Source: Congeria kusceri (taxonomy: Eukaryota > Mollusca > Bivalvia > Myida > Dreissenidae). From it: 64,000 nucleotides of DNA. How positions within the stretch are numbered: position 1 is the stretch's first letter; every line of letters starts with the position of its first letter. Below the pieces are notes generated by a model. It did no database searches and was not told the DNA's origin. It saw only the letters and a list, made by a program, of their open reading frames with translations. This document shows positions 9,348-60,700 of the stretch, piece by piece. The stretch lies in assembly GCA_027627225.1 (NCBI GenBank), contig CM051025.1, forward strand, positions 71,897,069 through 71,961,068. Reading direction: 5' to 3'. Both the position numbers and the translations under genes were made by a program.

Positions 9348-9467
9348 ATGTACTATGATTTCGATGAAAACTCGAGGACGAGGCGTGTACAGGATGTTCG
9401 TACAATCATGTTGCTGGGTAATGTTTCTGCTGATCCAACTGACTCATTCGTTGTCATCCAAATGTGA
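9348..9467 (+). promoter_or_regulatory. Possible overlapping upstream ORF at gene B start
   Basis: An ATG at 9348 precedes the gene B start by 7 nt in another frame and runs 39 codons to a TGA inside exon 1. If the mRNA leader includes it, it would reduce initiation at 9355 and act as a translational brake. The transcription start is unknown, so it may not be transcribed. Confidence 0.3.
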
Positions 9468-17015: not shown

Positions 17016-17058
<43 letters not shown>

Positions 17059-20000
17059 GACGTTAATGACGTTTACTCGACTGAAAACCGTTTCTTATTA
17101 TCGAAAGGCATTCGATAATGTCTATGGTCCAAAACGCTTGGTACGTACGGAATACACGTAATGTACATGCTGATTTACTCCAGAGGCACCACCAGCCTTC
17201 GCATACAGAAACTATACGATTAAAAGTTACGAAAACGTTATAACCTTATCTATTACAATACGGTTTTTGTATTTTGATCGGTAAGATTTCCATTAGAAAC
17301 GATTTTTGCAAAGTTTTATTTTAATCACAGATTTCTTGACTGCTGCTTTAATATTTTACTTAAGATGTTTCTGGAATGCAGCCCTTTACCTTACACATAC
17401 ATTTCAGGACGAGAAGAATCAGATCATGAAAACCAACGTCTGGCTTCAACTTGTAAGTTTATTATGTTTAATATTATTGCTGTCAATTCAGGTACATTTT
17501 CAAGTTCATGTATACTTATTTTCTAAGGTATAATTTATGTATAATTATCAGATTCCTGTTTAGTGTTAATGCAAAACTCATTAAATAAATTTAAAAGACT
17601 ATAGTTTTACTCAAATATTGATATGCACGTTTGGGTTTATTGTGCAATTATTCGATATCACCTGTTATATTGGAATGTATGTTATAACGTCTTTCTATGT
17701 GTCTGTCTGTCTGTCCGTCCGTCATAGCTATACACTTATCTCGAGGAGGTGAACTATGCTTAGACGGTGCGTATTAGGAATTAAGGTTTTGATAAATAAC
17801 AGTGAGGGTAATCTATACAATTTCTCTATACCTGAATTTTGCATATCGTCAATATTTTTATTCCTGATTGCAAACGTTTGAAAATCGTGAATAACACCAT
17901 ATTTCACTCACGTTAACTGATATTTTTAGCTCACTGGTCTAGACACTTTTGTCAAGATAGTCCTTAAAGTGTGTATGTACGATCTTTAATATCAATTATT
18001 TTCAAAATAAGCAGATAAAAGTGACAGTACAACATGAAAACAAACAGAAAAAAAACAACATAAAAATGACGAAGGAAACACTTTCATATGAAATGATTCA
18101 ACAAGTCGTAGTGTCGACTTTTGCATCGTTTATAAGTGCTGTGTAACCTGACCAACTGTCAAGTCAACGTAGACACATGCATTTGAGTTTCCGCCAGTAC
18201 AGATGAAAACTATTTGGTGATAAAAACTAGCTTATTGTGCATTTAAAAGCAATGGGTGTTCTTAACTTTTATTCCATTTCAAAAATAAATATATATTAAT
18301 AAACTTTATTTTGCTAATTGTATTTATGCCAGTAGATATGTTGTAAGAGCGAGCATGCACACTTCAAGTAATTATGGCGATGCACATGGAATGTAAGACA
18401 TTGATGTCTTCGATTTTCTTTGGTGTAAACATTGACAAACAAATCTAATAACCATATTATTAAATAAAATATTGATTAATAATGCTGTAAAAAACGAAAC
18501 GGGAATTATATGTTAAAGAACATAAACACCATTGTTTTCACATTAAACAATTGCACAAACTCTATATTATATGGTGGCTGATTTCTGCCATTTCGTTTTG
18601 GCGTGTTGGCGCCTTTGAAGGGCGCCAAAACGACAACACGCCAGAACGACAAATACCTAATTTGTCGTATCGGCGCGCATATTTATCGTTCTGACGTGAC
18701 GGCGTGTTGGCTGCCTTCTAACGCGCCAACGCGCCACAACGATAAAATAAGGGCGACAATACGACAAATTTGTACGCGCCAGAACGACAACACGACACTT
18801 AAATAGCTCGTTATGGCGGTCCTTATTTGGCGTGTTGGCGCCTCAGATTTGTCGTTCTGGCGGGTTTGAAGGGCGCCAAAACGACAACACGCCAGAACGA
18901 TAAATAAGCACCGATACGACAATTAAGATATTTGTCGTCCTTTCGTTTTGGCGTGTTGGCTCCTTCCGCTAAGCATGCACGCCAAAACGAAAGGACGACA
19001 AATAATTTATTTCTCGTATCGGCGAGCTTTTTGTCGTTCTGGCGTGTCGGCGCGTTGGCGTCCTTCAAACCAGCCAGAACGCCAGAACGACCAACCCGAG
19101 GCGCCAACATGCCAAATAATGGGCACCAGAACGAGAGATTTATGTGTCTTGTTGTCGTTCTGGCGGGAACAAACTTGTCGTATTGGCGCTCTTACTTTGT
19201 CGTTCTGGGGTGTTGGCGCGTTTGAAGGGCGCCAACACGCCGACACGCCAAAACGACAAGTACCTTTATTTGTCGTATCGGCGCGTATATTTGTCGTTCT
19301 GGCGTGTCGGCAGAACGATATGGCAGAAATCAGCCACCATAATATTAAGTTTATTAAGCGGGCCATCATTTTACGAAGATTGAACAGATATTTTGATTTT
19401 TTCTTTGCGTTCTGCATAGTACTGGATAGACTTCCAGTTGAAATGGGATGATGACCCGTTCTATGGAGACATCGGAGAAATTCGTATCAATCCTGAGTAT
19501 GCATGGCGACCGGACGTGGTGCTTTTTAACAAGTAAGCTGTAGTGTATACTGTGTGTAAACTTGGGGAAAATCGGGGATAAAAACGATACAGGGTGCTGC
19601 TAAAAAAGAGCAGGATGGAAAGCCGTATTTTTTTACTGTTTCTAAAAACATAGTGAGGTTTTTATAAATAAAATGCTGCTAAGGAAGGTTTTTAATCATT
19701 CGCTATTATATATTTGCAAAGGTGTATTGAAGGTTAAACTATATCGAACATTCTGTGTTGAAGAACCCATAGGAACTGCAGAGGGGTGGTGTGGGCAAAA
19801 GTAGCAATCAATGTGCAGCACTCTGCTATTTCGCTTTGGATCGTTCCTTATTAAACACCCTTTATAAAAAATGCTGCAGCTTGATACTAAATATATTTTA
19901 CATCTGGTTTAAAACATTAGTCAAGAGTATGACATTATATTTAAAATATAGAAAAATATAAAGTATGGAGACTTCAACATTGACAATGACAAACATATCA

Positions 20001-34694: not shown

Positions 34695-37540
34695 ATAATA
34701 CAACAGAACAGAACAGAACAGAAAGTTTATTGATATAACTTGAACAATTACAGTTCATCGTTACATATACAAAATAAAAATAAAGAGGCACATGCATGGC
34801 AATGCGAAAGTGAACATTACACAAGTTGTTAAATACAGGCCATTTTCAAATTAAACGTGTGCATTTAAAGGACCAAATCTCATTTTAAATGCATTTTTAC
34901 AGTATAACACAAGTTTCAAAAGAACTTTATAAATTGTACTTGTTAATACAAGTATAAATTTATATATACTAGGTCGGTTATATAAATATCTTTTAATATA
35001 TTTTTTCTGATATTTATATAAAGAGGACATACTAACACAAAGTGATACTCGTCTTCTATATCATTTGTGTTGCATATAATACATTAACGTTCATTTTTAG
35101 GAATATTTGCACGTCTACCAGATTCAATTTTTAACATACGAGATGAAAGTCTTAATTTTGATATATAAATCCTTAACTTATAGCTTTTAACTATGTCTAG
35201 ATTAGCAGATAAATCAAATCTTTGTTTCAATTTTTTACATAATATTAATGAACTCTTTATATTGAAATAATTTCGCCACAAACCTATGTACATGTCAATA
35301 AGTCTGGTTTTAAAAATGGGAATAAATACATTAATATTTACTGATTCCGGATACATCCATACATCATAAAACCCAGTATTCTGAAGCAAGTCTCGCTCCT
35401 TTGATAACCAATTGTTACATCGAATTACATTTTCTGCATCGCATCTCAAAGATCATATTTGTACTATACAATATTCAATGTGTTTGTTTAACAGTATACA
35501 ACTTTAAAAATTATTTTAAGATTCTTACATAACGAGTTATATTTTATGGGTAGCTTCCAAGCTCCCCATACACCGCAGAATTAGAAGTACTCATTTAAAC
35601 ACCAAATATTCTTTTCAAAAATCTTCTATGAACTCTTTCAATATCATCAGCATCCGAAAATCCACAAACCTCACAAGCATAACATATTATAGACGTGACA
35701 TAAAAATCAAACAGATTCTACATTACTTTAACTGGAACATACATTCCTTTTGTAATGGAAAAAAGTGACCCCATAGCCTTTAAACCCTTATTTTATAGAG
35801 TTTGAGTAGTTTTATAAACGATCCACCACTTGATAATACAATTATAAGATAATTAAATGATTGGACGTTTCCAAGTGGATCACTATTATAATATAATGAC
35901 TCATTATGTGAATTATTTCCGCCCTTTTTATATATAACTACTTTAGTTTTGTATACGTTGACTTTTAGCTTCCATCGCACACAGTATTCGTATAAATTAT
36001 CTAACGAGTTCTGCAGACCTTTCGGTGTTTCTGAAAAAATTACAGCATCATCTGCAAACAGTAATAAGTAAATAGACAACTGGTCTAAGGTTATCGTTGC
36101 TTTATTATTATTTCTCAAAAAGTATTCAATATCATTAACGAACAATGAAAATAGTATGGGTGAGATTTTCTCCCCTTGCAACAAACCGACGTCACATTAA
36201 AGAAATCTGAAAACGAGCCCATATGTTTAACACATAATTTAACTTCATCGTACATCGATTGAATAATTTTTAACAATCTACTGTTTCTTCCACTCTTAAT
36301 CAGCTTATACCATAATCCGTTTCTATATATTGAGTCAAATCATTTCATTAGTTCAATATAGCAACAATATAATTTCTTTTTACAACATAGTTGTTTATCT
36401 ATAAATGCTTTTAGTAGAAAAATTGCATCTACCGTGCTATAATTAGATTTAAACCGAAACTGAACGTCCGTGAGCGTATCGTTTGTAGTAGCCCATTTTA
36501 AGCCTTTCGTTTATAACAACAGTAAACAATTTTGCGAATCAGCTCACCAATGTTATGCCTCGATTATTACGTATTAAAATCCTCTTCTTCGACAATGATA
36601 TTTGACGAGGTCAACTGTTTAAAATGGTAAAAAAAATAAATAAATAAATAAATAAATAAATAAATCAATGTCAACATTATCGCCTGTATTATTCACTGAT
36701 TTTTTCTTAAATAGTTTCCAAAATTCTTTTTTTTTTTTCAATCGCATATCATTCATTTTAAGATATTGGTTCCTGTTATAATTGTCTACATTGATACTTG
36801 TAATCCTTTTCCACTATTAACATCATATTTCTATTTTCATTATCTGTATACAAATTTTATTTGTTCTACTTATCAATATATATACTGCGTTTTTGTTTTC
36901 ATGTATTATCAAACCATTTATTATGTGCGTTTGAAAATTGTGCACATTTATTTTGTTTATAATACTTTTAAAAATACTTATTGCCATTATTATTTAGAGA
37001 CAATGTAAATCGGTTGACCATTTCATCAGTATCCAAATTATTCTCTTTACAATGATATAAGTCTTGACATAGCTGATTAACTACTGCGGTGATATCTAAT
37101 AAGAACTGATCACCATAATTGTTATCCCATTTAACGTAATTGCTATCTGTGTTGAAATGGGAAACAAATAACGTCGTTTTTATTTTCATATCAAACGTTA
37201 ACGGTGCGTGATTGGAAAATAGAGTAAAATCGTGTACGCAGAAATTCATTATATTGTCAAAGTTATTGTAACTGGTTAACAAATAATCAACAACGCTCTC
37301 GCCGTTATGCGTAAATGACGTAAATTTGCCTATGCTCGCATCGCTGCCTATTCGACCGTTACAAATTCGTAAATCACGGGCTTTACATAATTGTAATAAT
37401 CTGTCACCAAAAGCATTTGTGCGATAGTCACTGGAAACCCGAGGAAGGCGAACATCAATGTCGTCATCGTTTAACTGAATTATATTGCGATCATTTCGCA
37501 CAAAATCCGACTTCTGCCCGACCCTCAATATTTTCCCCAG
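34695..37540 (-). pseudogene. Degenerate non-LTR retrotransposon (LINE), 5' truncated
   Basis: On the reverse strand the order is endonuclease, reverse transcriptase, C-terminal region, then tail. The segment 37535-36968 keeps the end of an APE-type endonuclease (GRIGSDASIGKFTSFTH, VDYLLTS, FSNHAPLTF). Between about 36600 and 36190 the reverse transcriptase is readable only across frameshifts. The segment 36184-35780 has GEKISPILFSLFVNDIEYFL and the catalytic FADDAV. The segment 35449-35084 resembles the LINE C-terminal region, ending GRRANIPKNER. The 3' end is a short GTTCT repeat (AGAAC on the plus strand at 34705-34720). Multiple stops and frameshifts mean it is not active. The clade is not assigned. 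Confidence 0.8.
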
Positions 37541-38604
37541 TGGGGGAGCAGGGCTGACCCGGGGGAATTTGACTAATTGACTATTTCCCCACCCTAGAGC
37601 CAAGCATTTTGTCTAAATACCATCAGTGGGAGATTCTATAGTGGTATCAAATGGCCCGGGGGCAAATGTTACCGGATTCTAAAATCCGACCAAATTCTTT
37701 TTCCCGGGACTCGGAATCAATCGGCCTCTGGGGAATCGTTGTCAGTCTAAAGTCCCGTTTATGCCCGCCGCAGCCCCAGGGGAGGGGGCATATTGATAGG
37801 TACATTAACACCGTTTTCCTAATCAGAAAAACAAGTCAACCATGTAAAAAGTTCATACAACAGAGTCTGGTTACATATATGAATAGTGTTTTACTATGAT
37901 GAACTGTCTGTAAATGTTTAATAGGTCCTAAATATTGAACAAACATATTTTGACATTTTCCTCTAAATGGAAATTTGAACTATGTATCCCTGTCAATCAC
38001 ACAAATAAAACAGTTTCCGAAAATGTGCAAAACGTAGTAAAATGTCCTACAATATAATTAGGCGTGTAATATTATATTTGTATATTTGTGTCAATACACT
38101 TTAGTTCTGAATACGATTAAAGTTTATTATTTTAGAAATGGTGTTAAAATCAAAATGTACCCTGTGCCGTTCACATTAGCCAAATTGACAAACCGAATCA
38201 ATATCATCGTGAAAGTGTTAGCACGTGGCCAAAACGTACAGGTGTAATTTTTAGCTTAAATAAATAAATAAACGTCACTCTAGTTTTAAATCAGTTTGTT
38301 TTGTACTTTATGCTGCAATCCAGTATGTTTGCAGTTTGTTCACGTTTCATACGCGTTTACATTAGCCCGAAACTTGTGAAAAATGCAAACGAAATTAGCG
38401 CGTGCTTTCTAAAATATGCAAATTAAATTAAGTGGTTAATTACTAGAAATCCCCTATTGAATATCATAGTATTCATTTGTGACTGAGATACCGTTGCAAA
38501 GGTCAGTAATGTTCGTTAACAATGCATGACATGACGCAGCTACTTTATTAATACCAATCAACAGAACTTACGGTTGGAAAATAATGCTCCTTCAATAGTA
38601 CACA

Positions 38605-42816: not shown

Positions 42817-42850
42817 ATGCAGTGGATCGGTCGTGCGTGCTTTGTACTAG
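42788..42850 (+). promoter_or_regulatory. Possible overlapping upstream ORF at gene C start
   Basis: An ATG at 42788 opens a 21-codon frame ending in TAG at 42848-42850. It overlaps the gene C start at 42817 in another frame, mirroring the arrangement at gene B. Whether it lies in the mRNA is unknown. Confidence 0.3.
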
Positions 42851-43020
42851 TCGTACTCGCGTGTTTCGAACCTGCGCTGCCCAACGATGACGCCAAGAGA
42901 CTCTACCATGACCTCCTGGTGCAGAATAAGTACAACAAGCTGATCAGACCAGTAGGAAATAACACGAAGGACCCTCTGACGGTCAAGATGGGCATCCGGC
43001 TATCACAGATCATTGACGTG
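42817..43020 (+). CDS. Gene C first coding exon (signal peptide and N-terminal helix)
   Basis: ATG at 42817, hydrophobic signal segment, then [12 protein letters not shown] and IRLSQIIDV, ending at donor GTATGT. In gene B the equivalent sequence is split over two exons (9355-9481 and 15741-15889). The exon ends in phase 0. It is the only such exon found for both gene C modules. Confidence 0.9.
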
Positions 43021-46000
43021 GTATGTATGGATAACTTTCTCTTGTTCTGAATACAGTATTGTAATATATCGTGTATTGTACATGTTTTGTCGTTGTAGTT
43101 ACGCTCTGATTGCTTTTTTATATACATGTGCATGTACATTTGACCATTTTTAATCAAAATAATAAAATAATGTAATGATGACGCATGTTACTGGATCAGA
43201 GTATTAAATACGCTGTGTTAACACGTACACATTACAAAAGATCTCGTACAGGTAAAGTTGAAACTTATTTAAGTTTTATATCTAGTAGAGTTGTACATGG
43301 TTGACGTATTAAAAAAAATATTAATGTACTATTCTTTTGCTACATATTTTGATTTAGTAATTGTTATATCGCTTACATGCGTCGATGACACGTGCTGTAT
43401 AGTAATTGTTTATCTACGAACATGTATTTTGCATACAAGTTATTCACCTACACTGTCGAAGTATTTTTAGTAAAGTAGATATAAATTTAGGCATGCATAC
43501 AATAGTTGTTTAGTGATTTTATTGAGATACATTAAGAATAACCACGTTGTTGAGCTACACAGTGATTAATACACGTACGTACATGTATATTAAAGGCACA
43601 CACAAGGTGCTGAAAGTTAAGACAACCACCAATATTTAACCAAGATTTTATTCAACACATAAAATAAAACATTATGACCAAACACTAGTTTACAATTTCT
43701 TAAAATAAATTTGACTCGTTTTATTTCCACTTGATTGTTTACAATCCCGTTATTGTGGTCAGTGAAGTGTTTCAATTTTGAGGGTCGTCTAATAAACCTA
43801 TACTAGTATCAGAATTGAATAAAGACATTGGTACAACACATTGAAAAAACAAAGGTAATTATACACAAAGCAAAATGGTTTTTCTATGCAAGTTTACTTA
43901 TTATAGTGGTCAGAAACTTACCAAGTGATTTTTAGTTCGTAAATTGTTGCATGTATTGTATATTTTGAACTTCAAATACTGTACAAACCGTTTCAGAGAC
44001 GGCCCTCAAAAGGACTTGTCCAGTTTATGACTTTCTGATAGCAGTACAGTTATTTATAAAAAGCATGGAACTTGTGAAAATCACCTCAATAGCAAATAAA
44101 CAGAGCAAGTGTTTATAAACCGTTTACTCGGAGGATCGGTGTTTTTATTATAAACGGTATTCAGAAATCATATGTTTTTCTTACGCTGGATATAATAGAT
44201 ATAATACACAAACAATAATACAATTTTTCCAGACATTTAAATGTCTGTTTTAATTGTTTTATATTGGGCCGGCTAGCTCAGTTGGTAGAGCGCTGGACTA
44301 CAAATCCGTGGATCGCGGGTTCGATTCCCAGGCCCGGCACCATAACTTGTGTGGGATTATTCTACGGCCAAGAAACTACGGCCAATTATTTCCCAACCTT
44401 TGATTCAAGTAGGGCAGTTGTCAGTTACTGGCATGAGTATGTGCACTTAGTACTGGTAAACCAGCTTAACCAGGAAAAGTGTGAGTAGGTTAACTGACCG
44501 CCGTTATATGACTGAAATACTCTTGAAAATCCAGGGCGAAAATCCAAATAAACAAACAAAACTTTCACCTTAAGTGAGGCTTTATAGAGATATATAAAGA
44601 AATAACTTAGTTTGAGAATTACAGATATGTGGCATAACGTTCTTGTTATTGATACGTTTTAATTTTACTTGTATGCTCCAACAACAAAATAAAGTATAAT
44701 GACCGGCGTTCAGGTCCATGTATAAGTTCCCTTCACTCCAGCTGTTGCAGAGAGAGTGTTACTATACATCAAGGTAATGATTTATACGAACGACAGAGAG
44801 GTGTGTAAAGGTAGTCAACACGTTCCTGGTTAATATGCGGATTGCGGAAGCTGGGTGCATATTTTTTACAAAACCCGATAATAGCAAGTCATTTTGCTGT
44901 AAACACACACAGAGTACAGCTTCGTTAGATTATAGTGTTTACGTTGTTACCGCTGTTATATCGTTTACTAAATCCGTGCCATGTTGAAAACAACGGTAGC
45001 TGATAAGAATTTTATTTTGGATGATTATAGCAATCAAAGCCGTTGAATGACAGAGGTGTCACTACATATATATTACTAAAGTATAGACGTCACATTCGAT
45101 TACACACACATCTATGCAATAAAAACGTAGAAAACACTCACATCCGTTTGACAGTGGACTAATCAGATATTAATTCAGTACCATTAATTCAATAACAATA
45201 TTTCAAAAACTTTTGTTTTACATATCTTGCGACCTATATTTTGCTTGGGCTTAATATTGTTTAAGGTCAGTAAACTGTGCGATGTCTACCTGTTAACTGT
45301 ATTCAATCAATTTTAAAAACATACAGGTCGGCTTGCATGTCTTTGAATAAGAATTTCTATTACACTTTACACTGTAATGTATTTCATTTTGAGTTTTCGA
45401 CTGAATAAAATGCAATATTGGAAGATTTAAGACACAAAGTAGAAAACTCTGACACCTGATTAATTGTGTGCAGTGGATTAATAAGTACTTGTACCTTAAA
45501 CAGTGTATAAAGTAACCAATGTATAACATGTAATTGAATATTTAGTATTTCGAGTTCATTTTTTGATTTCTATAAGGAATTTTGTCTGTATTATAAAGAC
45601 ACGTGCATGCGCAGTTCTTTCTGTTTTTCAAATGAACACTGATAATGAAAAGGAAATAATACAGGTGCATCCCCAGTAGGTATTCATAGTCCGGTTTTTT
45701 AGGCAAGTAAAATTAGCCGAAAAGATAACGCACTGAAACAACAACAAGCAACAATAATTAAAACAAAAACAAAAGACAACAACAATAACAACAGAAACAC
45801 AAACATTTCGTATATCGAACTGATCAAAACTGTTGTCTCAGCATTGGAACACTAGCATGTACGGCTAGTAAAAGCAGTGTTATAAAGTACAAAATGTGTA
45901 AGCAAATTAATGGCCGCGTCTCTCACAATAAACGTCATAATAAAAACTTAAATATTCTTTTCTAGGTGCTGGGAGCTTTACAGCAAACATAATGTTTCCA

Positions 46001-49000
46001 AAGAGTGTTCTATTGCAGATATGTTCTTGTTGTGCAACGCTTATAAGACATGCAAATAGTTATAAAATGTCGGCATAAATAATCGTTTGCCATCAAACAA
46101 AGGCATTAATACCATGAACTGTGACATTGCGGAACGTAGTTTACAGTCAAAACCCTGTTTAAGATGAAAGACAAGTACAGAATAAGAAAATACGACATAT
46201 GACAATCTTTGTTGGGCACCTTTGGAAACAGAGCAATATTTATCCTGAAATGGTTTTAAATGCGTTTTCGGATAGTTTTCCTGATGTTGTTTTTTCTTTG
46301 TTTTCAGGATGAACTGAATCAAGTGATGACAACCAATGTCTGGCTTCGTCAGGTAATTTATTTATTTTAATTTCATGAATACCTTTCCCCAGTTGGTTGT
46401 CATAAGGTTTGTAAGTTAGTTAAATAACGTATGTTTATATGCAAATGTTCTGCATTATTTCTTGCTTTACTGTGTATTAGTCCCCCGTTATTTATATATA
46501 ATATTCAATGTGTATGTGTTATTTACATTAATATGACGTACACATCAGTCTGTATGAAATACAGGAGTAAACTTTGCTTTCAGTGAAAAATTATATATAT
46601 ATTCTAGTCGAATTCTATTCACATCTTTCGAAAACAAATTGTATTTAAAGCTTCAATCCATAGAAGTTCATATAATACATTTTACATTGGCATTAGTTCT
46701 AATGAACGGTTATGACGTTTATTCCACTGAAAACTGTTTCTTATTTACGAAAGGCATTTTATAATGTTCGAAAACTCTTGGTACGAACGGAATATACACT
46801 AATGTACATGCTGATTTACTCCAGAGGCATCACCAGCTATCTCATGCAGATAATTGTACCATAAACAGTTACCAATACGATATTATTTTTCCAATTCCAA
46901 TGAGGGGTTTTCGTATTTTTATCGGTAAGATGTCCAAAAGAAACGATTTCTGCAATGTTATATTTTTAATAACAGATTTCTAGACTGCTGCTTTAATAGG
47001 TTAGATATATTATGTCGTTTATCCACCAAACTGCAAAGTTATATTTTTATTAACATGTTTCTAGACTGCTTCTTCAATAGGTTCGATATATAATGTTGTT
47101 TATCCATCGAACTGCAAAGTTATATTTTTATTAACATATCTTTAGACTGCTTCTTCAATAGGTTCGATATATTCTGTCGTTTATCCACCAAACTGCAAAG
47201 TTACATTTTTATTACAGATTTCTGGAATGCTGCTTTAATAGGATCGATATAAAATATGTCGTTTATCCACCAAACTGCAAAGTTATATTTTTATTAACAG
47301 TTGTCTGGACTGCTGCATTAATATGTTCGATATATTCTGTCGTTTATCCACCAAACTCTTTAATAGATTTGGAATCATTCGCACGTCTATGGCTAAGTTA
47401 CTCGTCCATTACAACGTTCTACAGTTTTAGTTATATAATGTTATTATAACAGTAACATTCTTTTGTTTTCTAATTAAGTAAATCAATTAAAATCGCTTAT
47501 TTAAAATGGTTTAGATTTAGTTCAATTAAATGGCAAAACCGTAAGTTTGAAACTATTTTCAATAACTGACGTACACGTGACACACATACTGCGGCATTTT
47601 ACATCTTTTGTATCTGAATATCGTTATATACATCATTCACATAGTCCTGAGTGTATGTATGTAAATACATGTATTTATGAAACATACACGTTCGCATACA
47701 CGTTCACATTAAACATCAAATTAACTATATATAATGTATTAATAATATATTTAACAACTCATTTCTTCAATACCAGTGCTAATTCATGGTGAAATTAAGA
47801 TTTTTGGTTTGTTTTTTTTATAGTTTGACCTTGATTGTGACTTTGACCTTGACTCATGATTATTCAGAAATCATCACACTTTGATTATTAACTTATTATT
47901 TATGGAAATTTTTGAGTGAAGTAAGTTGATAGCACGAATTACATCAATAATCCAGGTCATCCTGATGGCAAATAAATGGCGGCCATCTTGGATTTTTAAC
48001 GGACCCCTTGATCTGTCGCTCGGGGTCTGGCTTTCAAAATATCCACAATACTTCATACTATCACCATGCAAAGTGGTTCAATTCTTGAATTAATAGTGCA
48101 ATTCTATGAAATATCCCCCAAAAGATCATCACTATATGTTTAATTATATTGTAATAACTTGTTAAATATTGATGAAAATAAAATACCAACAACATTCAGC
48201 AGAACACACCATTATTCATTCTACTGATTCCTGAATTCAGCATCATTTCGCTAGCGTCGTTGCTGCTTTAGTAGGTAACTGTCAATAATATTGATTAGGT
48301 AAATGAATATGACATAAGAGATGAATTAATTTTCGATGTTAATTATATAACATACCACACTTACATAGGAAAAAGTTAACAGATAAACACTGTCAGTTAT
48401 GTAGGGGTGACTGGTTATCATAAAACATTTTTCCTTTTTCACAAATTGACGCATTGGCAACATTGCAAGTTAATACGCAAACTATATGATAGATCTACAC
48501 AGAAAGTAAATGGTCTGTATGAAATTTATATCTTTTGTATATAATTTGTTTGTTATGATAAGAGCAAATGATCCCTACAATAACTACAATATAAACTCTC
48601 GGGAAAACGTTTTATTGAAATAATATGAAACATTGTTCTCCTCAAAATTCTATTAAGAAATTAAACCTTTTGGGTATAGAAAGTAATGCAACATGTCAAA
48701 ATATTTCGTATTGAAAATGTTCAAATTTGATAGTCAATCCTATTATTTCATTTAATAATTATGTAGTTAAGATGAAAACATACAAAACAGCATATAATTT
48801 ATACTGAACATTACTAATTCTCGCCTTTATTGTGAATGTTAGACTGATAATCGAATAATTTAAAGACAACGCATTTGTAACGTTATTAAATTGTTATTGC
48901 TTACCGTATGTCAGGCGTATGCAATAAGTTATATCAGCAAATCCAACTAGCACAAACTAGCAGACGGAGATAAAACAAGGTTGGTTCATTAAAATTAATA

Positions 49001-52000
49001 ATAAATTGCACTTTGCAAATAAGGTAATTGTTTAAGTTATACCAATACATGATGTAATGTTAAACTGATAAGCTAAATAATTTATGTTTTGTCTTCGAAT
49101 TTGTAGTGATGTGCCACGACAAGTAATTGGAAATTTCGAGAACTTTTCGCCTATGTTTATTTCTTCATATTTGATTGATGTTCTGTTGAACCAAGACAAA
49201 TGAAGCGCATTGATTAGCGAGAAAGCCCTGAAACTATCAATAAACTATTTGGTTAGCACGTTCCGATATTGCCAAATGTTTCTGCATTGTAACATCACGC
49301 CCAAATCGCATAGACATTGTTGATTATTAAAACCAACAACGCTTCGGTTAAACATAGGACTTTTTGGATAGCGCAAATGGCTCGTACATCGTTTTCATTT
49401 AGTAATCTTAACGTCATGTACGAGTAATTATGTAGTCATTTAAACCATTCAAAAGGCAACAAAGTATGGTGTTCAATATGCACAACAGCTAGCACCGATT
49501 GCAAAACATACTGTGATTTATTATAGGATATTATATAAACTTTACTGAACTTTACTGATTTTATAATAAATATAACCCTACTGTTTGAAGTAATCAACTA
49601 TAATTGCTAGTATTAACATCGAATACACTTGTCTTGACAATTTGTTTATTTGTTTGCCAAAGAAAAAGCACAGAAAAAAGATGAATTCAACAGTACATTG
49701 ACGAGAAATAAACCAACCGATTGAATGCATCAAAGATTTATATCTTAATTTTAAATATGATAAAGTTCATATCTGTATAAACTTCATATTTAAATCATTT
49801 ATCAGCTCCGATATACATACAATGCCGCTGTTGTTGACGGATTTGGCTTTATTAAGATGCTTACAGTGTTACATGTATTAATATTGTCACACGTCCGCGC
49901 TAACCTTATTCTACAATACATATCTAAATAGCATGTACTACATTAACTGTTGTTACGTTACTTGAAAAGATGCAATTTGTGCACACGTTTTGCACATGTT
50001 TTGAGTATTTTACTTCTCTATATTCGCTGCACCTTCAGGAATGGTATGACTCTAACCTTAGATGGTACCCAAATGAATACGGAGGAGTAGATAGGCTTTA
50101 TGTCCCTTCCGAGCAAATTTGGCTACCAGATATTGTATTGTATAACAAGTATGACAACAAGTATTTTTCTGCGTCTAGTTTATTGTTCCCCGCATGTTTA
50201 TAAGGTATTTGACCAATTAGATGCATGCGTTTAGATAGATGTTTGCTAAATTAGATTCAGAATCACGATTTGTTTGTGCTATAAGATTGAACGCCAAGTG
50301 CATTGCAGTAGTGTCCTGCTTTGTTGTGGCATGGAAGAACAAAACTTAGACACTCTGATTTAGTTGGCATGTTATCGGTTTATCATTGCCACGACGAGCA
50401 TAAGGCTTAATTTGAAATGTGAAGCCCTTTATCTACAGGAATGGCGTGACGTCAGTCTGCAGTGGGACCCAGATGAATATGGAAAAATCACGACCCTTGA
50501 ATTACCATCGAAAAACATTTGGCTGCCAGATATAGTCCTCTTCAACAAGTACGTTCTTTGTTACCAATAGTTTCATTCCATAAGTATGCGTTTACCTAGA
50601 AGTAAATGAAGTTGCTAACAATATTAATACTCGACTTCCTTCCAAAACACTTGATGTATACATGCATATGATGCATTTACTATATAAATATTCTGTTATC
50701 AGCCTTTACCATGTTATAGTTATATATTAATACATGCAATTAAACCTTGTTATTTTTAAACCATGTACGTTTCTTGGGACGTGGTCTGTGCCTTTTTCCT
50801 CTTTTATTTCAGGTACGTATTTATCTAAAAAACAGAATAGAAGCAATGAATAAATAATATAATCAATATGAATGACCTGGTACCCCCGGGTATAAAGCAC
50901 TATCCCACCGAGTCTCATTGGCTCATTATAATGGGATAGGGTGAGAGCAATTGTAGAGTGTACACCGCAGTCCCAGCAGCCGTTTGTTCTACCCAAAATA
51001 TACGATATGTCTCCCCTGTCCTTGATTTGACTTTATGTTTGTTACGTTTGTTTCTATTTATCGCGGTGGTGTATGTTTGAGTTAGCTCACCTAAGCACGA
51101 AGTGCTTAAGAGTGAGCTCTTGTGGTCAGTGGTCGTCCGTCGCACGTCGTCGTTGTCCGTAGTCAACAAAAAAATCCTCTCCTCTGATATCGCTTGTTGA
51201 AAATTGATCAGACTTGGTCAGCCTTCAAATTATTTTGATTCGTTATAAAACATGGTCGTCTAGATTTGAAATGTTCTACCGAAGTTTGTCCATTTTTTTA
51301 AACATGTCTGATACTTGTTCGTCGTTTTACTTCAGATATCTCTTATCTATTAATTGTACAAGCCATTATGATGCGTTAAATTCACTCAGGTGAGCGACCC
51401 AGAGCCATCTTGGCCCACTTGTATAAACTTATTTTTTAGAGTGTACACGCCTAGATTTGTAATCAGCTATATTAACACAAGTACTATTTTAGTTTATCAT
51501 TCAAGTCTTTTTTCAATTTTTCGACATTCTTAATTGCGTGTTACACTGTGCTAAAAGGACTGATTTTCAGTGCCGATGGCCATTATGAAGTGACGTTAAT
51601 GACAAAAGCAACGCTGGACTACAAAGGCTGTGTCGTGTGGGAACCTCCAGCCATTTACAAAAGTTCGTGTACGATCGAAGTGGAATTCTTCCCTTTTGAT
51701 ATACAATTATGCTCAATGAGATTTGCATCGTGGACGTATGCTGGTGATCAGGTTGACCTAATTCATGAATGTTCTACTAGCAAGCATGCACGGGAAGTCA
51801 TTTACAATGGTATTGATTTGAGGGACTTTTACGAATCTGGTGAATGGGACATTTTACAAGTGACTGCCGAAAAGAACGTTAATAACAACACCGATTATCC
51901 GGACATTACATTCAATGTCACAATGAGGCGTAAAACTTTGTTTCATACTGTTAATTTGATTATTCCTTCTGTGGCGATATCCTGCTTAACTATCCTGGTA

Positions 52001-52865
52001 TTTTATCTGCCCTCTGATAGCGGCGAAAAGATTACTTTGTGCATCTCTATTTTGCTCTCACTGAATTTCTTTTTCTTGCTTCTTGCGGAGATTATTCCAC
52101 CGACCTCCATTGTTGTACCGTTGATTGGAAAGTATCTGCTTTTCACAATGATTCTCATAACATTGTCAATTATTGTGACCGTCATCACGCTAAATGTCCA
52201 CTTCCGTTCGCCGTCAACGCACACAATGTCTCCCTGGGTAAGAAGAGTGTTTCTGAATATTCTTCCCAAAATGCTTTTAATGAGACGTCCGAATCTTGAG
52301 AATGAAAAGGTGGCTCGAACAATAGTTCGCACGCGAAACGGGGTAGAGATGAGGGACCAGTATGTAAATAGGCGGGACCTGGAGTACGAAACCATGCGGC
52401 TGACTGCCTCGGATGACATTGACGAGAGGGCTACAGGACTTTCCGATGAGGTACAAGAAGCCATTGACAGTATATGCTTCATAGCAGAACATCTCAAGAA
52501 GGGTGACAACACTGCGTCCGTAAGTGTTACTCTTTTTATATTTATGCGCTCTAGTGTATTTCGACCTGCATTTATACATTCGCAACTACCTATATGTCAT
52601 ATAAATACTGTGCATACAACATTATTTCACATGTATTAACTTATTTATTAATATAACTTGTCATTACCAGGTTAGAGAAGACTGGAAATACGTTGCCATG
52701 GTGATGGACCGACTGTTTCTATGGATATTTACAGTGGCATGCGTGGTAGGAACCTTTGGCATTATCTTACAGGCACCGACTCTGTATGACAACCGGCAGC
52801 GGCTCACCCCCGTGGATAGTACTTACAGATGTCTGCCTCCAGAGGGAAGCACTGAAGGTTCATAA
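42817..52865 (+). CDS. nAChR subunit gene C, isoform ending in module A (non-alpha)
   Basis: Proposed exons are 42817-43020 (signal peptide plus N-terminal helix, 204 nt), 46308-46352 (45 nt), one of 50039-50148 or 50439-50548 (110 nt), 51571-52519 and 52671-52865 (stop TAA). The product has 500 residues and phases agree. Residues 1-22 are a signal peptide ([10 protein letters not shown]). Marks are loop-D Trp (TNVWLRQ), Cys153-Cys167 Cys-loop, loop-B Trp (RFASWTY) and four membrane segments. M2 reads [12 protein letters not shown] and ends LLLAEI, with the usual outer Glu. Loop C ([13 protein letters not shown]) has no Cys pair, so it is non-alpha. Two extra cysteines occur, at KGCVVW and IHECST. 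Module A is one exon from loop E through M3 and the cytoplasmic loop, without the introns seen in A and B. Pairing with the second 110-nt exon is my preferred model. Confidence 0.85.
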
Positions 52866-55800
52866 TGACATAGACGTAATTCAGAAAGTAAAGTGTTTAG
52901 AAGTTCTATACCTCCCATCCAATGTATGTAGAAGTTGCACACTGTCTTGAAATCAATTACATAGTCATAAGAGACTTTATGCATTCATTTACGTGTCATC
53001 ACAAATACACGCTCAAAGAACAAATGCTTACATGAGTTAAATTTACTAAGAATAACACTTCTTTGAAACGTATCTATTGATTAAGATGCCAAATTATATT
53101 CTTATAAACAAGTCAAGATGTGCTTGATTAAAACAATTGTGGCAGGCAGAAAAATCCAGCTAACAGTGGTTACTGTGTTCCATAATTTGTATAAAGTTGC
53201 TCAGTTTCATTTTTACCAAGACAGTAAAGTTGTTTGCGAAGTTAACTAATACAATCATGTTTGTATATTATATTTCATAAATAATCGATTCAAAAAAGAT
53301 GCGTAGTGATAACATTTAAAATGAATTCGATGTAATATTATGTTTAAGGTTAGTTTGATATGAACCTTTGTATTAACTCTAAAATAATTTACAGGTGATT
53401 GTTTGCTGTTCCTGAATACAAGTTGCAAAGAAAGTATATGCAATGACTCGATTAAAAAAAAGATTAAAGTATATATTTCCTACTGCTCATTGTAAAATGA
53501 CATGCATCTTCGCCATAACGAAGCCACCTGTTGCAGTTGGCTATCACAGACAAGGAACCGCTTTCTCATAGGTTTCAGACGGAATAATAGAGCTTCATTT
53601 CAGAGTGAAGTAGAACTAAACAAAGAAAGTAGGGAAATTAATTACATACGATTGATACAGACGTAAGGTACATTGCAAATTCGCGGTTAGTTTAGTTTGA
53701 AAAACGAATGTTAACTTGATTCAATGAATTCTTCAATGCTAATTGGATTCAAAGAATTCGTCAAGACTTAGAAGAAATAATTATTTTGAAGGCTTAGAAA
53801 CTCAATTTGTCAGGATTATCACTGTTCACAGCGAAGGATTCATGCTAATCTAGTCCAATGATTGAATCCGACAAACGAATGAGATCGCACGATCCTAATT
53901 AAAGAAGGCTTATTATCGCAGTCCAGGATGGGCTGAAATTTAAAGGATGTATCTAAATGAAACAGACACTCCTCGTATATTGCTTTAGGTCACCGAAATA
54001 GATTTTCTCGTATAGTGTCTTTGAATTGCTCGTATAACTCTAATTATGAGCTCGATTTTTTTTTTTTTACTACGACATTAATGTGTTATTAGTTTTTCAT
54101 GTTTTATATCTTTTGTAAATTTTGACCTCACTTAGTTTAACGTCAATTTTGAATATCATTCCGACATGAAGTCATGCCGGAAGCTCAACATGTTCATCCT
54201 TTACCACTTAATAATTTATGTAATTATGTTTCAGTATGAAAAACTATTTATTTACCTGCCAACAAATTTAAAGTTCTCAGATTCCACTCAGTAAGCATTA
54301 CTTATTTGAAACTAGCATGCTGCTATTTCATTGGTCAGTAAAATGCATCTTTAGAATTGGACTTTAAACGAACATATTTTACTATATATGCGCAATAGAC
54401 AGCGGTCTCCCCTAATAGTATATTTCGTCCAAACCATTTTTTCTACTTTCAGTATAGCAATGTATAAACACGAGTGACGTTTATTACATATCATTTGGAA
54501 GTAATGCGGAATTTCTTTAATTGAATGAGGTTTTCTTTTAAAATATGGATTGATAACATTATAATATGCAGGATACGTTTGCTATTTGGATGTTTGACAC
54601 ACGTTTATTTGAAATATAATTTTGCTACAGGACATCGGCATTTACTATTCAGGCGTGTTGATTCAGCCACACACAAAACTAGCTTAGAATCCGTCGATTA
54701 CGTCTGATTATTGGGACTAGAATTTCGTTTAGACATTATCAAATGCATTAGTATGTCTTACTTATGAACATGTATACACACTGTTGTGTTACACATTGTT
54801 GAGTCTTTTTGCAGGACTATACACAGCTAGCAGATCGGAGCAAACGATGTGTTATACCCCTAGACAGTGATAGGGTAGGTCTGAATATTGGTATACACGA
54901 TGGGTGCACAACAAAAGTGATATAACGTGTGTTCGTATGTCATTTTCACAAGTAATCTACTTACATGTGATTTATGATACATTGTATAATGATTTTAGCT
55001 TTCGTTGTACTGTATGTTGTACTTTATAAGAATTTAGAAGAATTGTGAATCGTCTTTATAAATATCAAGGACATACAATTATTAACAGTCAATGAATACC
55101 AGTCGTAAGTGCTCGAAACCAATGACAGTTACTGAACATCCTCTTTAAGCTTAAACACTATAACATGCTATCGAACACCTATGTACGTTTTTTCTTAGTT
55201 TATGCTAGCTGCGAATGGCTTGATGTTGTACTCTGTGTTAAACTTACACGTCGGCATGCTTTTATTTAGTTGCATGGGAAACTTTTTTACAACATTTATA
55301 GGTATAATGCCTAAGTGTTTGCGTCATGTATTAAACCTGAACGTTAAGTATGAGTAAATACAATTAATAATATATATTAAATAAATTACATAATGGCTTT
55401 TCCTAACAGAGTACCAAAATTGATGTTAAAGAACAAACTTTTGAAAATCTCGTGCTGACAGAATAGAACACAATCAAGTTATCTCGCGGTTTTATACAAT
55501 ACTGGTACATGTCTATTTTGTTGTTTCCGTTCTATATAACTATAAAATGAACGTTTATAATCAAGAATATATATAAAGTTTATTTACCTAAACATGTTAT
55601 TGAATGCTATGCATATTTCAGCGCCGACGGCCATTTCGAAGTCAAGATGTTAACCAAAGCAACCCTATTGTATACAGGACTTGTCATATGGGAACCACCA
55701 GCTATATATAAAAGCGCGTGCATTATGAACGTCGAATTCTTCCCATTCGATGTACAAAACTGTTCATTAAAATTCGGATCGTGGACATACGATGGGTTCG

Positions 55801-57088
55801 AGGTTGACTTGGTGCATATGTGCGCCATGGACTCAGAGTCGACCTCCGTCATTAAGAATGGCATGGACCTGAGTGAGTTCTACCAGAACGTGGAATGGGA
55901 CATCGTTTCCGTCACTGCTCAGAAACATATTAAAGTTTACATTTGCTGTATTGAACCTTATATCGACGTAACCTTTTATGTGATACTACGACGAAAAACG
56001 TTGTTTCACACTGTGAATTTGATTCTTCCCTGTGTTGTTATTTCATTTTTAACAGTACTCGTGTTTTATCTCCCTTCTGACAGCGAAGAGAAAATAACTC
56101 TATGCATATCAGTGCTTCTCTCCCTTACGGTATTCTTCTTGTTGCTCACGGAGATCATTCCGCCGACATCAATCGTCATTCCTCTGATTGGCAAATATTT
56201 ACTGTTCACAATGATCCTCGTCACCCTGTCAATCATCGTAACAGTATTGATTTTGACAATCCACTTCCGCTCACCGGCGACTCATAAAATGTCAAGATGG
56301 ACAAGAGTTGCATTTCTTGTCATACTGCCACGGATGCTGCTGATGCAGCGCCCGCTCATGCGCAAATACAGCCACCTGAGATGCAATGGCGTCAGGCAAC
56401 GGCACCATGTCATCGAGCCAGCCTTTGTTCAGTCAAATGATAGGCAACTGGCAGAAGAAGATTCCCAAGAAGACATTCCAACATGGCGACGGAATTCAAG
56501 TCGTGCAGCGCATAGAAAGGGCTCCATCATACTGACACAGATCCAAAATGCTCTTGATGATGTCACGTTTATATCTGACCACTTGAAAGATGAAGATGAA
56601 TATTCGTCTGTAAATAATACCGTTATATCTTTTGAAATGTCTGCTATTAATATTTCAGTAATTTTCTAGGAATTTAATCAGGCGAAATTTGCATAATATA
56701 GCATGTCAGCGATTGAGTGAGACATTGTCGGCTATGCTCTACCGTAAAGTGAATTTGAAAAGCACGTCATATTTTCATGACAAAATGCGATTGATGACTC
56801 ATTACCGCCTTATTCATTGAAATATAATCGTTATGAAATAATACGCCTTCTGAATCTTGTATTTTGCACTCGTTAATATATTAGTTGATGCATTCTCTGT
56901 ATCAATTTCAGAATATCCAAGACTGGAAGTTTGTTGCCATGGTGTTGGACAGGGTGTTCTTTTGGGTGTTTACTCTTGCTTCAGTAATAGGGACATTCGG
57001 CATACTTTTGCAAGCGCCAACAATATACGATGATAGGATGGCACTCACTGCTGACAATGCAGCGAAAGATGGCTTCTGCTTCACTTGA
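42817..57088 (+). CDS. nAChR subunit gene C, isoform ending in module B (alpha type)
   Basis: The proposed product shares 42817-43020 and 46308-46352 with the module A isoform, uses one 110-nt exon, then 55622-56609 and 56912-57088 (stop TGA). It would have 507 residues, in frame throughout. Module B has the Cys-loop ([15 protein letters not shown]), loop-B Trp (KFGSWTY) and an alpha-type loop C with Tyr, Cys-Cys and Tyr (VYICCIEPY). It could therefore supply the principal acetylcholine face. M2 is unusual in having Glu at -2' (DSEEKITL, where relatives have DSGEK). Its outer end LLLTEI is normal. I found no separate 5' exons between 52866 and 55621, so module B must be spliced from the shared 5' exons, or be a partial duplicate that is not expressed. 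The intact frame and conserved residues favour function. Confidence 0.7.
43021..46307 (+). other. Intron 1 of gene C
   Basis: GTATGT donor and TTTTCAG acceptor. It contains a tRNA-derived SINE at 44266-44565. No further exon is recognised. Confidence 0.7.
44266..44565 (+). mobile_element. tRNA-derived SINE
   Basis: The head looks like a tRNA. It has a box A region TAGCTCAGTTGGTAGAGCGC and a box B GGTTCGATTCCC, but the acceptor and T stems pair poorly, so a working tRNA is unlikely. The body continues with ACTGGTAAACCAGCTTAACC and a 3' part GACCGCCGTTATATGACTG, then AAATACTCTTGAAAATC, and ends in an AAACAAACAAA tail. I recall this 3' part as a conserved domain of molluscan SINEs. Confidence 0.75.
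46308..46352 (+). CDS. Gene C 45-nt exon (loop D)
   Basis: Encodes [15 protein letters not shown]. The Trp is the conserved loop-D residue of the complementary acetylcholine face. The 45-nt length and phase 0/0 match genes A (1019-1063) and B (17408-17452). Confidence 0.93.
46704..46990 (+). repeat. Dispersed about 290-bp element, copy 3
   Basis: Matches 17060-17355 in the same orientation, and the reverse complement of 31433-31725. It lies about 350 bases downstream of gene C's 45-nt exon, whereas copy 1 lies just upstream of gene B's 45-nt exon. It runs directly into an array of an 81-bp unit. Confidence 0.75.
46960..47360. repeat. 81-bp tandem repeat
   Basis: About five units of roughly 81 bp, with cores AACTGCAAAGTTATATTTTT, TCTAGACTGCTTCTTCAATA and GGTTCGATATAT. 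The unit continues the right end of the dispersed element, since single related units follow the other two copies. The array therefore probably arose by local amplification of that end. Confidence 0.8.
50039..50148 (+). CDS. Gene C alternative exon 4A (110 nt, loop A Tyr)
   Basis: Encodes [18 protein letters not shown], then [17 protein letters not shown] plus two bases of the next codon. Acceptor CTTCAG, donor GTATGA. It is a tandem duplicate of 50439-50548 with the same length and phases. It keeps Tyr in loop A (VLYN), the residue expected on an acetylcholine-binding principal face. Including both copies would shift the frame. Confidence 0.9.
50439..50548 (+). CDS. Gene C alternative exon 4B (110 nt, loop A Phe)
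   Basis: Encodes [19 protein letters not shown], then [17 protein letters not shown] plus two bases of the next codon. Acceptor CTACAG, donor GTACGT. Loop A has Phe (VLFN), as in the non-alpha genes A and B. Only 290 nt separate it from exon 4A. Confidence 0.9.
51083..51430. repeat. Dispersed element between exon 4B and module A
   Basis: Opens GAGTTAGCTCACCTAAGCAC and GAAGTGCTTAAGAGTGAGCT, continues with a CGTCCGTCG-rich part and the TTGAAAATTGATCAGACTTGG block, and closes CTCAGGTGAGCGACCCAGAG then CCATCTTGGCCC. The ends are partly inverted (AGCTCACCT / AGGTGAGCG). I recall similar elements as frequent in bivalve genomes. It is non-coding. Confidence 0.65.
51571..52865 (+). CDS. Gene C 3' module A exons (non-alpha)
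   Basis: Two exons (51571-52519 and 52671-52865) encode everything from loop E to the C-terminus. The first starts TGCCGATGGC, completing the AACAA codon of either 110-nt exon to Asn. The last encodes M4 ([18 protein letters not shown]) and a short tail ending [11 protein letters not shown]. Confidence 0.92.
52866..55621 (+). other. Spacer between the two 3' modules of gene C
   Basis: About 2.75 kb. No signal peptide, 45-nt or 110-nt type exon is visible, so module B has no 5' exons of its own here. One splice-flanked open segment of 60 nt occurs at 54815-54874 (see findings). The 3' UTR of module A should occupy the first part. Confidence 0.6.
55622..57088 (+). CDS. Gene C 3' module B exons (alpha type)
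   Basis: Exons 55622-56609 and 56912-57088. The first begins CGCCGACGGC after TTTCAG, in the phase that completes the AACAA codon of exon 4A or 4B. It holds the Cys-loop, the vicinal Cys pair in loop C (YICCIEPY), M1 to M3 and the cytoplasmic loop. The last exon begins [18 protein letters not shown] (M4) and ends DGFCFT. The arrangement is the same as module A, indicating tandem duplication of the 3' half. Confidence 0.92.
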
Positions 57089-57352: not shown

Positions 57353-57532
57353 GATTTATTCTTAACTTTAAATAAATGGCCATGAATTTGGTTTCTAACG
57401 TATCATTATGGCGATTTGAATAAAAGGAGTGTATTCACTTGTAATAGTTTGCAATAAAATTGTATTCTACCATTATATGCTATATCATTATAATCATGTG
57501 AAAGAAGAGTTTATTTGATCGAAAATTAATTG

Positions 57533-57770
57533 AGGCGTGTTGTGGAGAAACCGGGCTTAATGCATGTGCGTATCGTGTCGTCCCTGATTGGCATGTGCAG
57601 TCCGCACAGGCTAATCCAGGACGACACATTTCTCTTTGTGGTATTTTCTGTTTCAATGAAGTCTCTTTTAAACATAAATCAACTATAAGCGGAAAGTGTC
57701 GTCCCGGATTAGCCTGTGCGGACGACACTATACGTACATGCATTAAGCCCGGGTTTCCCACGACACGCCT
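57533..57770. repeat. Palindromic dispersed repeat, copy 4
   Basis: The cleanest copy of the family. The ends AATTGAGGCGTGTTGTGG and CCACGACACGCCTCAATT are near-perfect inverses. The interior repeats CAGGACGACAC-type arms in both orientations. It lies downstream of gene C. Confidence 0.85.
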
Positions 57771-60700
57771 CAATTATTTGTGTATATGTGAGAAATCGTT
57801 TAACTAATATCGTATGTTAGTTCTTGTTATGATCAGTATTAAAATTAATATACTAGTACACGTGTTTCAATTTTCTCCGTTTATGTTACACGTTTATGAG
57901 CAGACAAAAACTTCAGATAAAATCAACATAACAATAAATGTAATGTTGCAAATGTGGACAAGGAATAAAAATAAAGCGGAGTAAAAACCGTAACAGACCG
58001 AAGTGATCCCTGATGTGTTGAATCACAATATTACAAATGTAATATACACCCATCATTTTAAAGAAATGCTACCAACGTGTTTGTCCAAATCCACATTGGG
58101 TACAGACTATTTTTCTTGAATAAAACAATGTTACTCATTGTTACACCAATAATACTGCCAAATATTTTACCGACAACCAAATATTTTATAAAGCTTTCTA
58201 AATCTGAAAAAGTCAACTATTTTTATTAACCCGTGTATCAACACAGAGTCTCATTAAATATCTGAACAATGTTAAGTCGTGCTAAACTGTACGATTCGAA
58301 ACCACGTGCATTGCGTGTTGTGTTTAATAGCATGTACAGTTAAATAAGCCTCCAATCATGCACACCGACGATACACCAACGAAATATTCGGGTATTATCA
58401 AAAAAAAAACAACTGGAGGAGTATGCGTCAATGGCATTCACAGTATCAACACATATACATTTTCAGACGATATGAACTACATATAAAAGGTTTTATGTTA
58501 CGATAATTCTTCATTTGAATATATGTAATACTATGGGTGTTTTTAATTACTGCAATTCTCAATACAAATAAACTTTAATTCGCAATACAAATATACATTT
58601 CTTTTTATTTTTGAAACAGAGTTCATTCAAAGAGGACCCTGTGTTTTTAAGAAAAAAGAACAACATAGAAACTGCCTGAAAAAATATTCGGCATGGATAT
58701 TACGATAATTCGCATAACCTCATAACGACTTTGCTTCAGTTTTAGCCCTTTGTAACGTTTCAATACTAGTACATCGTTGAAGACGCCCCACGATTAAATA
58801 CTATTCAAACGCTAAAGCTAAATGAATTGGTCTCGTAAATACAGAAGACGTATGTATACACTAAGATTCAGATGATATTTATCATTGTTCTGTTTGTCTA
58901 CACCTCATTAGAGGTTGTTACATCTCAATCCGTGCCCGGCGATATAACCGTCATGACGGTATCGGCGTATTCTTTACTCTGAGGTTGGGTCGACACGTTC
59001 CATTACCGGAAAACAAAACAAATGATAAGGCGATCTAGAACATCTAGTTGTGCTTCGGTTTTATTGGCTAATTGTGTGTATTTGTATTTATAAAACATAC
59101 GGTAGGCGTCATGTACAGTTTGATAAGACACACTTGGAGGCTTCACATTCTTAGAGAATACATTCTCAACACTGGGTCGTTATCCTCGTTCTAGTGAAAC
59201 GAGAGACGATAAATTCTGTCATGCAAAATCCCATCTTAGGGCGTGGTGGCTTATTGGATTATGTGATTGCCTTTCACCCGAATAGGCAAAAGGTTGAACC
59301 CTTTGCTTCGTATTTTAGGCTTATTTCAATAAAACTCATAAGTTATTTACAATAGCCTTTATTGAAAATGCTTGTACAAATACCTATTGTAGAGGCAGTT
59401 GAACTGGCAAATAAATAGTGTTTTATAAACAAACTTAATGTCTGATAGCCAAAAGCCTTTACACAATTGTCGCGTTGTCGTTGCGATATACTTTTTTAAA
59501 ATAACAAATATACATTCAGTTAAATCTCTAGTTTCTTTATTGGGTATTTCACATCGTATTACCACATGTTAAGCTTTACAAATCAAAGACTTCAACAATT
59601 CGTGTGGTAATTATATATTCTGTAGAAGACCTTTTTCCATGTACAATATATTTAAATCTTCAAATTGTCAAATACGATTTTAAATCAAATATTAGGCGTG
59701 AGAAATTCACCTGGTTTGAATACTTGTATATCCATACTAGACTTTTAAAAACGTGAATGTGACACTCTCAATTATAGCAATTCTTAATAGTCGTTTTAAC
59801 AGTGGGCTATAATTTGCTGTGCTTTCATGTCGGAAAAAAAGCAATTAGCACTTGACAAAGGTTCTGTAATTGTAAATATCACGTTATTATACACCAGTAC
59901 AACAGCACGGAGCTACTGTGTCCTAAGTACACTCGAATGTTTTTTTGTTGGATTGAGTATTAAATTCTTTCAAAATAAGAATGTAATTCGATGAGTTATA
60001 CCGTTTTGATTGATAATACGCCAAACATTGTTAGAAATGAATCGTGATTGCATGCGGCTTAGACCATTTAATGACAGCATTACATCTCAAATCGAATAAA
60101 TTTAACCATTATCACTACTATACATTATACGTTTACAAAAAGATCTGACAAGGGCATTGTCTTTTATGCGATATTAATGCATATCTATTTGAGCACTAAA
60201 CCTCCTCTATTTATGCCACGCATGATCGTGCGCGTCTAGCAAGAAGGCTTCCCAACGATTTCTCTCTGACAATGACGAATGGCGATTCCTGAATAACGAT
60301 GCAATTAATTGTGGAAGATCGGCAGACAGGAATCAAGAAGCACTATATGAACCGAATTATCGCGATCAGTCATTGTTTTAGGAAATCCAGGAAGGGTGAT
60401 TGAATAGCTTCGATTGATAAACGGCCAACCTGCTTCCAACGCAATGATGATTTGTGTCGACCTCTATCATTGTTTGTTAAACACGAAGCACGGCTTACTT
60501 TTGAGTAATTCGGTACATATTTTTATCCCCGAGATTTAAATTGCTTTTTATTCCTGTGTTTTATTGGTTTTATTGCTGTAAACAGATTGAACAACTCGTT
60601 ACAACTGTTATTCTTAATGGAGTGGCTTTGAGTCCGTATAATTAGGGTTTGAATGCGAACGGTATTATAAAACTACAATATCGAGAGTGAAAAGATGCGT

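Follow-up and report, generated by a model that had tools for sequence, protein, structure and literature searches.

Can one gene encode two classes of nAChR subunit, and by what route would its transcripts reach the second 3' half? The question is raised by a locus in the 64,000-nucleotide stretch of Congeria kusceri DNA analysed here (the window). The outline drawn in the first-pass annotation, a single E1 and a single E3 followed by two 110-nt exons and two intact 3' modules (A and B), was borne out: all exons that it named are present in the letters of the window, in position and on the plus strand, and every intron of the locus is GT-AG. The exons, with a further terminal exon of module A (A7), and the putative long intron are as follows.

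42817-43020 (204 nt), plus strand: E1, with the start codon, the signal peptide and the N-terminal part of the LBD; phase 0; we take it to be exons 1 and 2 of the usual nAChR plan, fused
46308-46352 (45 nt), plus strand: E3, phase 0, presumably carrying the loop D Trp
50039-50148 (110 nt), plus strand: E4a, with Tyr in loop A (VLYNN); Mya P0001 has this type before module B
50439-50548 (110 nt), plus strand: E4b, with Phe in loop A (VLFNN); the 6 relatives with a readable exon 4 have this type before module A
51571-52519, plus strand: A5, main exon of module A, covering what remains of the LBD, M1-M3 and the greater part of the M3-M4 loop, without a vicinal Cys pair
52671-52865, plus strand: A6, M4 exon of module A; left unspliced it runs to a stop at 52865, otherwise it uses a donor after 52857
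54815-54870, plus strand: A7, additional last exon of module A, with a stop; matches the C-termini of Dreissena polymorpha P0005 and Mya P0007
50149-55621 (5473 nt), plus strand: putative intron from E4a to B5, drawn from the exon order and the E4a-B pairing in Mya P0001; it would hold E4b, A5, A6 and A7
55622-56609, plus strand: B5, main exon of module B, with the rest of the LBD including YICCIEPY, M1-M3 and the loop
56912-57088, plus strand: B6, M4 exon of module B, with a stop

The A product is 500 aa long and the B product 507 aa. A chance origin of the modules was ruled out by the long open frames of A5 (316 codons) and B5 (329 codons), by the TM segments that both carry and by their conservation in other species. 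The intron between E1 and E3 contains a tRNA-Cys-like sequence (44268-44342, anticodon aca), perhaps a tRNA-derived repeat, and just downstream of B6 lies an inverted repeat (57530-57775) which by eye resembles a miniature transposon.

The two products are Cys-loop nAChR subunits with both domains at full length. The scores, far over the cut-off, were 249.1 bits for Neur_chan_LBD and 232 bits for Neur_chan_memb in the E4a-B product, and 239.7 and 244.2 bits in the E4b-A product. Loop C reads YICCIEPY in module B and has no vicinal Cys pair in module A, and the contrast in the Cys pair that had been noted for this locus extends to the relatives: the pair is lacking in all 8 rows of the A clade and present in all 7 rows of the B clade. 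The LYNN, FGSWTYD and YICCIEPY of the E4a-B product align to LYNN, FGSWTYD and YNCCEEIY of the solved alpha-6 chain 8zrn_A, and we take its residues to have the corresponding roles (loop A Tyr, loop B Trp, loop C Cys pair). With the Cys pair, the loop A Tyr and the loop B Trp, the E4a-B product is an alpha subunit as judged from its motifs; the E4b-A product, with LFNN in E4b and no Cys pair in A5, is by the same motifs not one. E4a is the source of the loop A Tyr by which the aromatic box of the Cys-pair module is made complete, so exon 4 and module appear to be chosen together; with E4a coupled to B and E4b to A, one principal face would be complete and the other incomplete.

The reading we favour, with a probability of roughly 70%, is that of one transcription unit in which common 5' exons serve two subunit classes by alternative splicing. 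Both transcripts would begin with E1 and E3. The non-alpha transcript would be E1-E3-E4b-A5-A6-A7, while the alpha transcript would run E1-E3-E4a, skip E4b and the whole of module A, and join B5-B6. Exactly one E4 would be needed per transcript to keep the frame.

Module A was first thought to end at 52865, and the interval 52866-55621 before module B to be empty. The end was placed too early, and the interval holds A7. The exon at 54815-54870 is joined from a donor after 52857 (AAG/gttcat) that departs widely from the usual consensus. The C-terminus of the D. polymorpha A protein matches the A7 product and that of the Mya A protein is like it (GLFSASKSENSFCFSSRNL), which suggests that module A probably does not as a rule terminate at the 52865 stop, or at least does not always do so. 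The gap from A7 to B5 is 751 bases.

A separate start for module B was sought in three ways. HMMs of E1, E3 and E4, made from the fetched homologues, were run over 144 kb (the window and 40 kb on each side) and gave seven E1-like (E<0.01), six E3-like (E<0.001) and seven E4-like (E<1e-8) matches, which sort by place and strand into this locus and five other nAChR genes. None of the best 22 matches of each HMM over the 144 kb is an E1-, E3- or E4-like exon in 52866-55621. Stop-to-stop reading of this interval on the plus strand, with frames of at least 35 codons, revealed A7 and no nAChR-like start. In the 1.55-Gb assembly of 1071 contigs an E1+E3 query found this E1 at E=1.3e-40 and next a neighbouring gene at E=2.9e-5, with no second such E1 among the 18 candidates scored; module B was likewise single, the second match being module A (66% over positions 36-286 of the 299 in the query). 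These searches score the best candidates only and read them without splicing, so that very diverged exons could escape. The claim that module B has no N-terminal exon of its own before it thus holds as far as the scan of the 144 kb and the genome search with E1+E3 extend.

The locus lies in a cluster with the five other nAChR genes, two upstream on the plus strand and three downstream on the minus strand, each with one E3 and one E4. The first of them, which extends to 4458 of the window, has two E1-like exons before its single E3 and E4, and these were also two matches in the genome search; it may be another instance of alternative 5' exons. The neighbouring features are the following.

1019-4458 and 15776-22791, plus strand: upstream nAChR neighbours (HMM scan)
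9422-9544 and 9681-9797 of flanking segment L012, just upstream of the window: E1-like exons of the first neighbour (HMM scan)
35780-37612, minus strand: frames that by eye resemble the reverse transcriptase and endonuclease of a retroelement
62642-66179, 72056-74919 and 86962-91797, minus strand: downstream nAChR neighbours (HMM scan); positions above 64000 lie beyond the window

The closest named proteins among the matches listed are those of D. polymorpha, 91% for module A and 88% for module B. The A protein, P0005 (DPMN_103350), has E1-E3-E4b. The B protein, P0003 (DPMN_103349, the adjacent number, on a contig of equal length), is 373 aa long and begins inside B5 without the 5' part, and the annotation of that species counts A and B as two genes. 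Module B of the window and of D. polymorpha have 90 of 91 residues identical in TM1-3, 97 of 107 in the LBD and 93 of 119 in the M3-M4 loop, a pattern like that left by selection. In a further B protein, P0041 (396 aa, B5-B6 joined), ADG follows MIIGILLHPWNIIR, NIIR, which is not exon 4 sequence; a relative may thus have some B transcripts that begin ahead of B5 or keep sequence lying there. The Mercenaria A model P0240 (isoform X2) starts in the upstream intron. P0211, P0231 and P0232 were rejected as truncated B transcripts: the first two run into other sequence after B5, the third stops there, and all three look like unspliced genomic frames.

Module B could on these data be a stranded duplicate that lost its own 5' exons and is silent, or N-terminally truncated from a start of its own, with E4a just an alternative exon 4 of gene A. 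The separate D. polymorpha record beginning inside B5 (P0003) and the joined B5-B6 reached from sequence other than an exon 4 in P0041 fit such a history, as does the intron start of the Mercenaria isoform P0240, by which starts of this kind are modelled in the group. Against it, module B is intact and conserved with the selection-like pattern seen against D. polymorpha, the Mya B protein P0001 has E1-E3-E4a, and a protein without E1-E4 would miss the signal peptide and loops D and A. We regard the stranding of module B as unlikely.

A tree of 49 modules recovered an A clade (8 rows) and a B clade (7 rows), each with support of 100/100. Dreissena and Mya are found in both, so the A/B split predates the separation of these genera. 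The two clades are not sisters: B (stem 0.94) groups with P0006 from Potamilus (90/85) and A stands on an open fork. In Mya arenaria the B protein P0001 and the A protein P0007 differ at 2 of 60 E1-E3 sites (96.7% identical), whereas the LBD of their modules is 57.4% identical; in 75 other pairs whose LBDs are 54-62% identical, identity of the 5' part has a mean of 70.9% and a maximum of 80.7%. When a fit is made to 528 other pairs, the P0001/P0007 pair has a residual of z=7.1, and the largest z among the 528 is 3.1, the pairs not being independent and z being descriptive. The fit used 34 rows; the window-B row was dropped, and P0009, P0014 and P0028 were skipped by the pattern. P0001 differs from the window at 6 of the 60 sites and is thus further from it than from Mya A.

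Fast evolution of module B alone was rejected as the source of the Mya pattern. Set against the 25 proteins that are not in the A clade, P0001 shows a normal relation of 5' to 3' part (z -1.1 to 1.5), and it has in common with A a motif, RPIGNN, that occurs in only the three Mya proteins of the 284 fetched. The contigs listed for these three proteins have one length, 93,038,574. The 5' exons thus follow species and the 3' modules follow class, as sharing predicts whether or not Mya still shares them, and for a long time after the modules had separated the 5' exons were either shared or homogenised. The signal-peptide part also differs between the Mya A and B products, and together with the two differing sites this means that Mya now has at least two E1 copies, either recently duplicated or homogenised. 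That the 5' exons are common to both modules is well supported as a reading of the sequences, by the single E1, the intact and conserved module B and the contrast between the 5' part and the modules in Mya. Weighing against the favoured reading are the differing E1 copies of Mya, the P0041 and P0240 models, the two-gene annotation of D. polymorpha and the separate positions of A and B in the tree.

The way in which the exons may be combined was followed through 16 exon paths. A full ORF was obtained in 8, which are all the paths with exactly one E4, and all 8 paths with neither or both were truncated. E4a and E4b, both of 110 nt, are 59% identical; as homologous neighbours of which exactly one keeps the frame, they are candidate mutually exclusive exons. 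All four combinations of E4 and module keep the frame and give full ORFs, and chimeras of A5 and B6 are also in frame. The splice phases, as had been claimed, let either E4 join either module; the actual joining of either to either is not supported by the relatives, which pair by type.

Among the matches listed, all six A proteins with a readable exon 4 have the E4b type (P0005, P0007, P0012, P0013, P0021 and P0025), a count that is weaker than it looks since the homologues were clustered at 90% identity and isoforms of one gene may hide. The exon 4 of the A protein P0103 is shortened, and P0240, P0246, P0249 and P0250 have none. The one B protein with an exon 4 among these matches, P0001 from Mya (one gene model), has the E4a type; P0003, P0041, P0211, P0231 and P0232 lack an exon 4. 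Neither an E4a-A nor an E4b-B protein was found among the heterodont-type proteins recognised in the matches listed. From the exon order (E4a, E4b, A, B) and this pairing we infer an E4a-B5 junction in this animal, and the non-alpha unit, E4b-A, would then be nested in the intron from E4a to B.

Exon 4 also differs between proteins with nearly the same module. P0241 from Crassostrea (isoform X1) and a further protein, P0018, have modules that are 99.2% identical over 398 residues and different exon 4s, of which that of P0241 is clearly E4a-like (score 179 vs 137) and that of P0018 weakly E4b-like (128 vs 115). This indicates, on the evidence of two proteins, an alternation of exon 4 on a single module in a bivalve gene. 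The same contrast in exon 4 is found between P0016 from Octopus and another protein, P0015, with modules 89.8% identical, a figure which may include species difference. Several exon 4s of gastropods and others are near ties by the simple score.

If both E4s were joined freely to both modules there would be four products. The four in-frame pairings with their full ORFs would allow this, and in the P0241/P0018 pair two exon 4s are indeed joined to one module; the lack of E4a-A and E4b-B proteins among the matches listed speaks against it, weakly, as 90% clusters can hide isoforms. We consider free combination quite improbable. That a separate 5' set for module B exists in the animal and is absent from the assembly is highly improbable, for in spite of the more than one E1 copy of Mya and the general difficulty of assembling tandem arrays, the window and its flanks (144 kb) contain no N, no second E1 was found over all 1071 contigs, and the D. 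polymorpha B record, from a separate assembly, likewise has no 5' part.

For the favoured reading, one unit with linked choices of exon 4 and module, the history would have begun with a molluscan alpha gene in which a choice of two exon 4s preceded a single 3' end. The 3' end would then have been duplicated before Mya and Dreissena separated. Last, copy A would have lost the Cys pair and become tied to E4b, while copy B would have stayed alpha, tied to E4a. More tentatively, a single promoter and one coupled splicing decision (E4a-B or E4b-A) might supply an alpha and a non-alpha subunit that meet in one channel, with splicing setting the stoichiometry of the receptor.

In the Drosophila genes lola and mod(mdg4), which encode transcription factors and have many 3' ends, alternative 3' modules follow a common set of 5' exons; we know of no linked exon choice of such kind in them. 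The insect nAChR alpha4 gene has, to our knowledge, one 3' end and an unchanged subunit class. Unlike in that gene, each exon 4 here has its own 3' module. The likeness lies in the two alternative exon 4s of an nAChR alpha gene: in Drosophila, Apis, Anopheles and Bombyx the published account describes an alternative exon 4/4' near the Cys-loop, for which a very ancient duplication is postulated (PMC2045683). The cholinergic gene locus (ChAT/VAChT), as described for ticks, has a common first exon of 82 bp and yields by alternative splicing two functionally linked products, and there too a coding exon of one product lies within an intron of the unit that encodes the other (PMC7524744). Its products are unrelated proteins, whereas here homologous subunits would have in common the exons for their signal peptide and for a part of their binding domain. 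In the deg-3/des-2 operon of C. elegans two cooperating nAChR subunits stand under one regulatory unit; unlike the present locus, it consists of two genes in an operon, with no common coding exons (PMC4258610). Five bivalves have 99-217 nAChR genes, many in tandem arrays, and the window likewise lies in an nAChR cluster; the array genes are described as separate, and in the text of that paper the stem 'splic' occurs once, in the title of a reference (PMC6896357). A search of the open-licence literature, by titles and the openings of abstracts among the papers listed, found no nAChR locus with common 5' exons and two 3' modules. The four cited systems each resemble the locus in a single respect, and the combination appears to be undescribed in the literature searched, to the extent of those titles and openings.

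Counts of genes in the nAChR expansions of bivalves may score a single locus as two, and the D. polymorpha annotation may be such a case. On the more tentative reading, with one promoter and one coupled splicing decision, the locus would be a frozen half-way stage, an old pair of exon-4 isoforms that has acquired dedicated 3' halves and is not yet two genes. The comparison also suggests a path from isoform pair to dedicated paralogues, with the 5' half in common and the binding domains of the 3' halves diverged to about 57% identity, a stage seldom caught. The class of a receptor subunit is normally thought to be fixed by the identity of its gene; here class would be an outcome of splicing, and the composition of the channel would come under splicing control.
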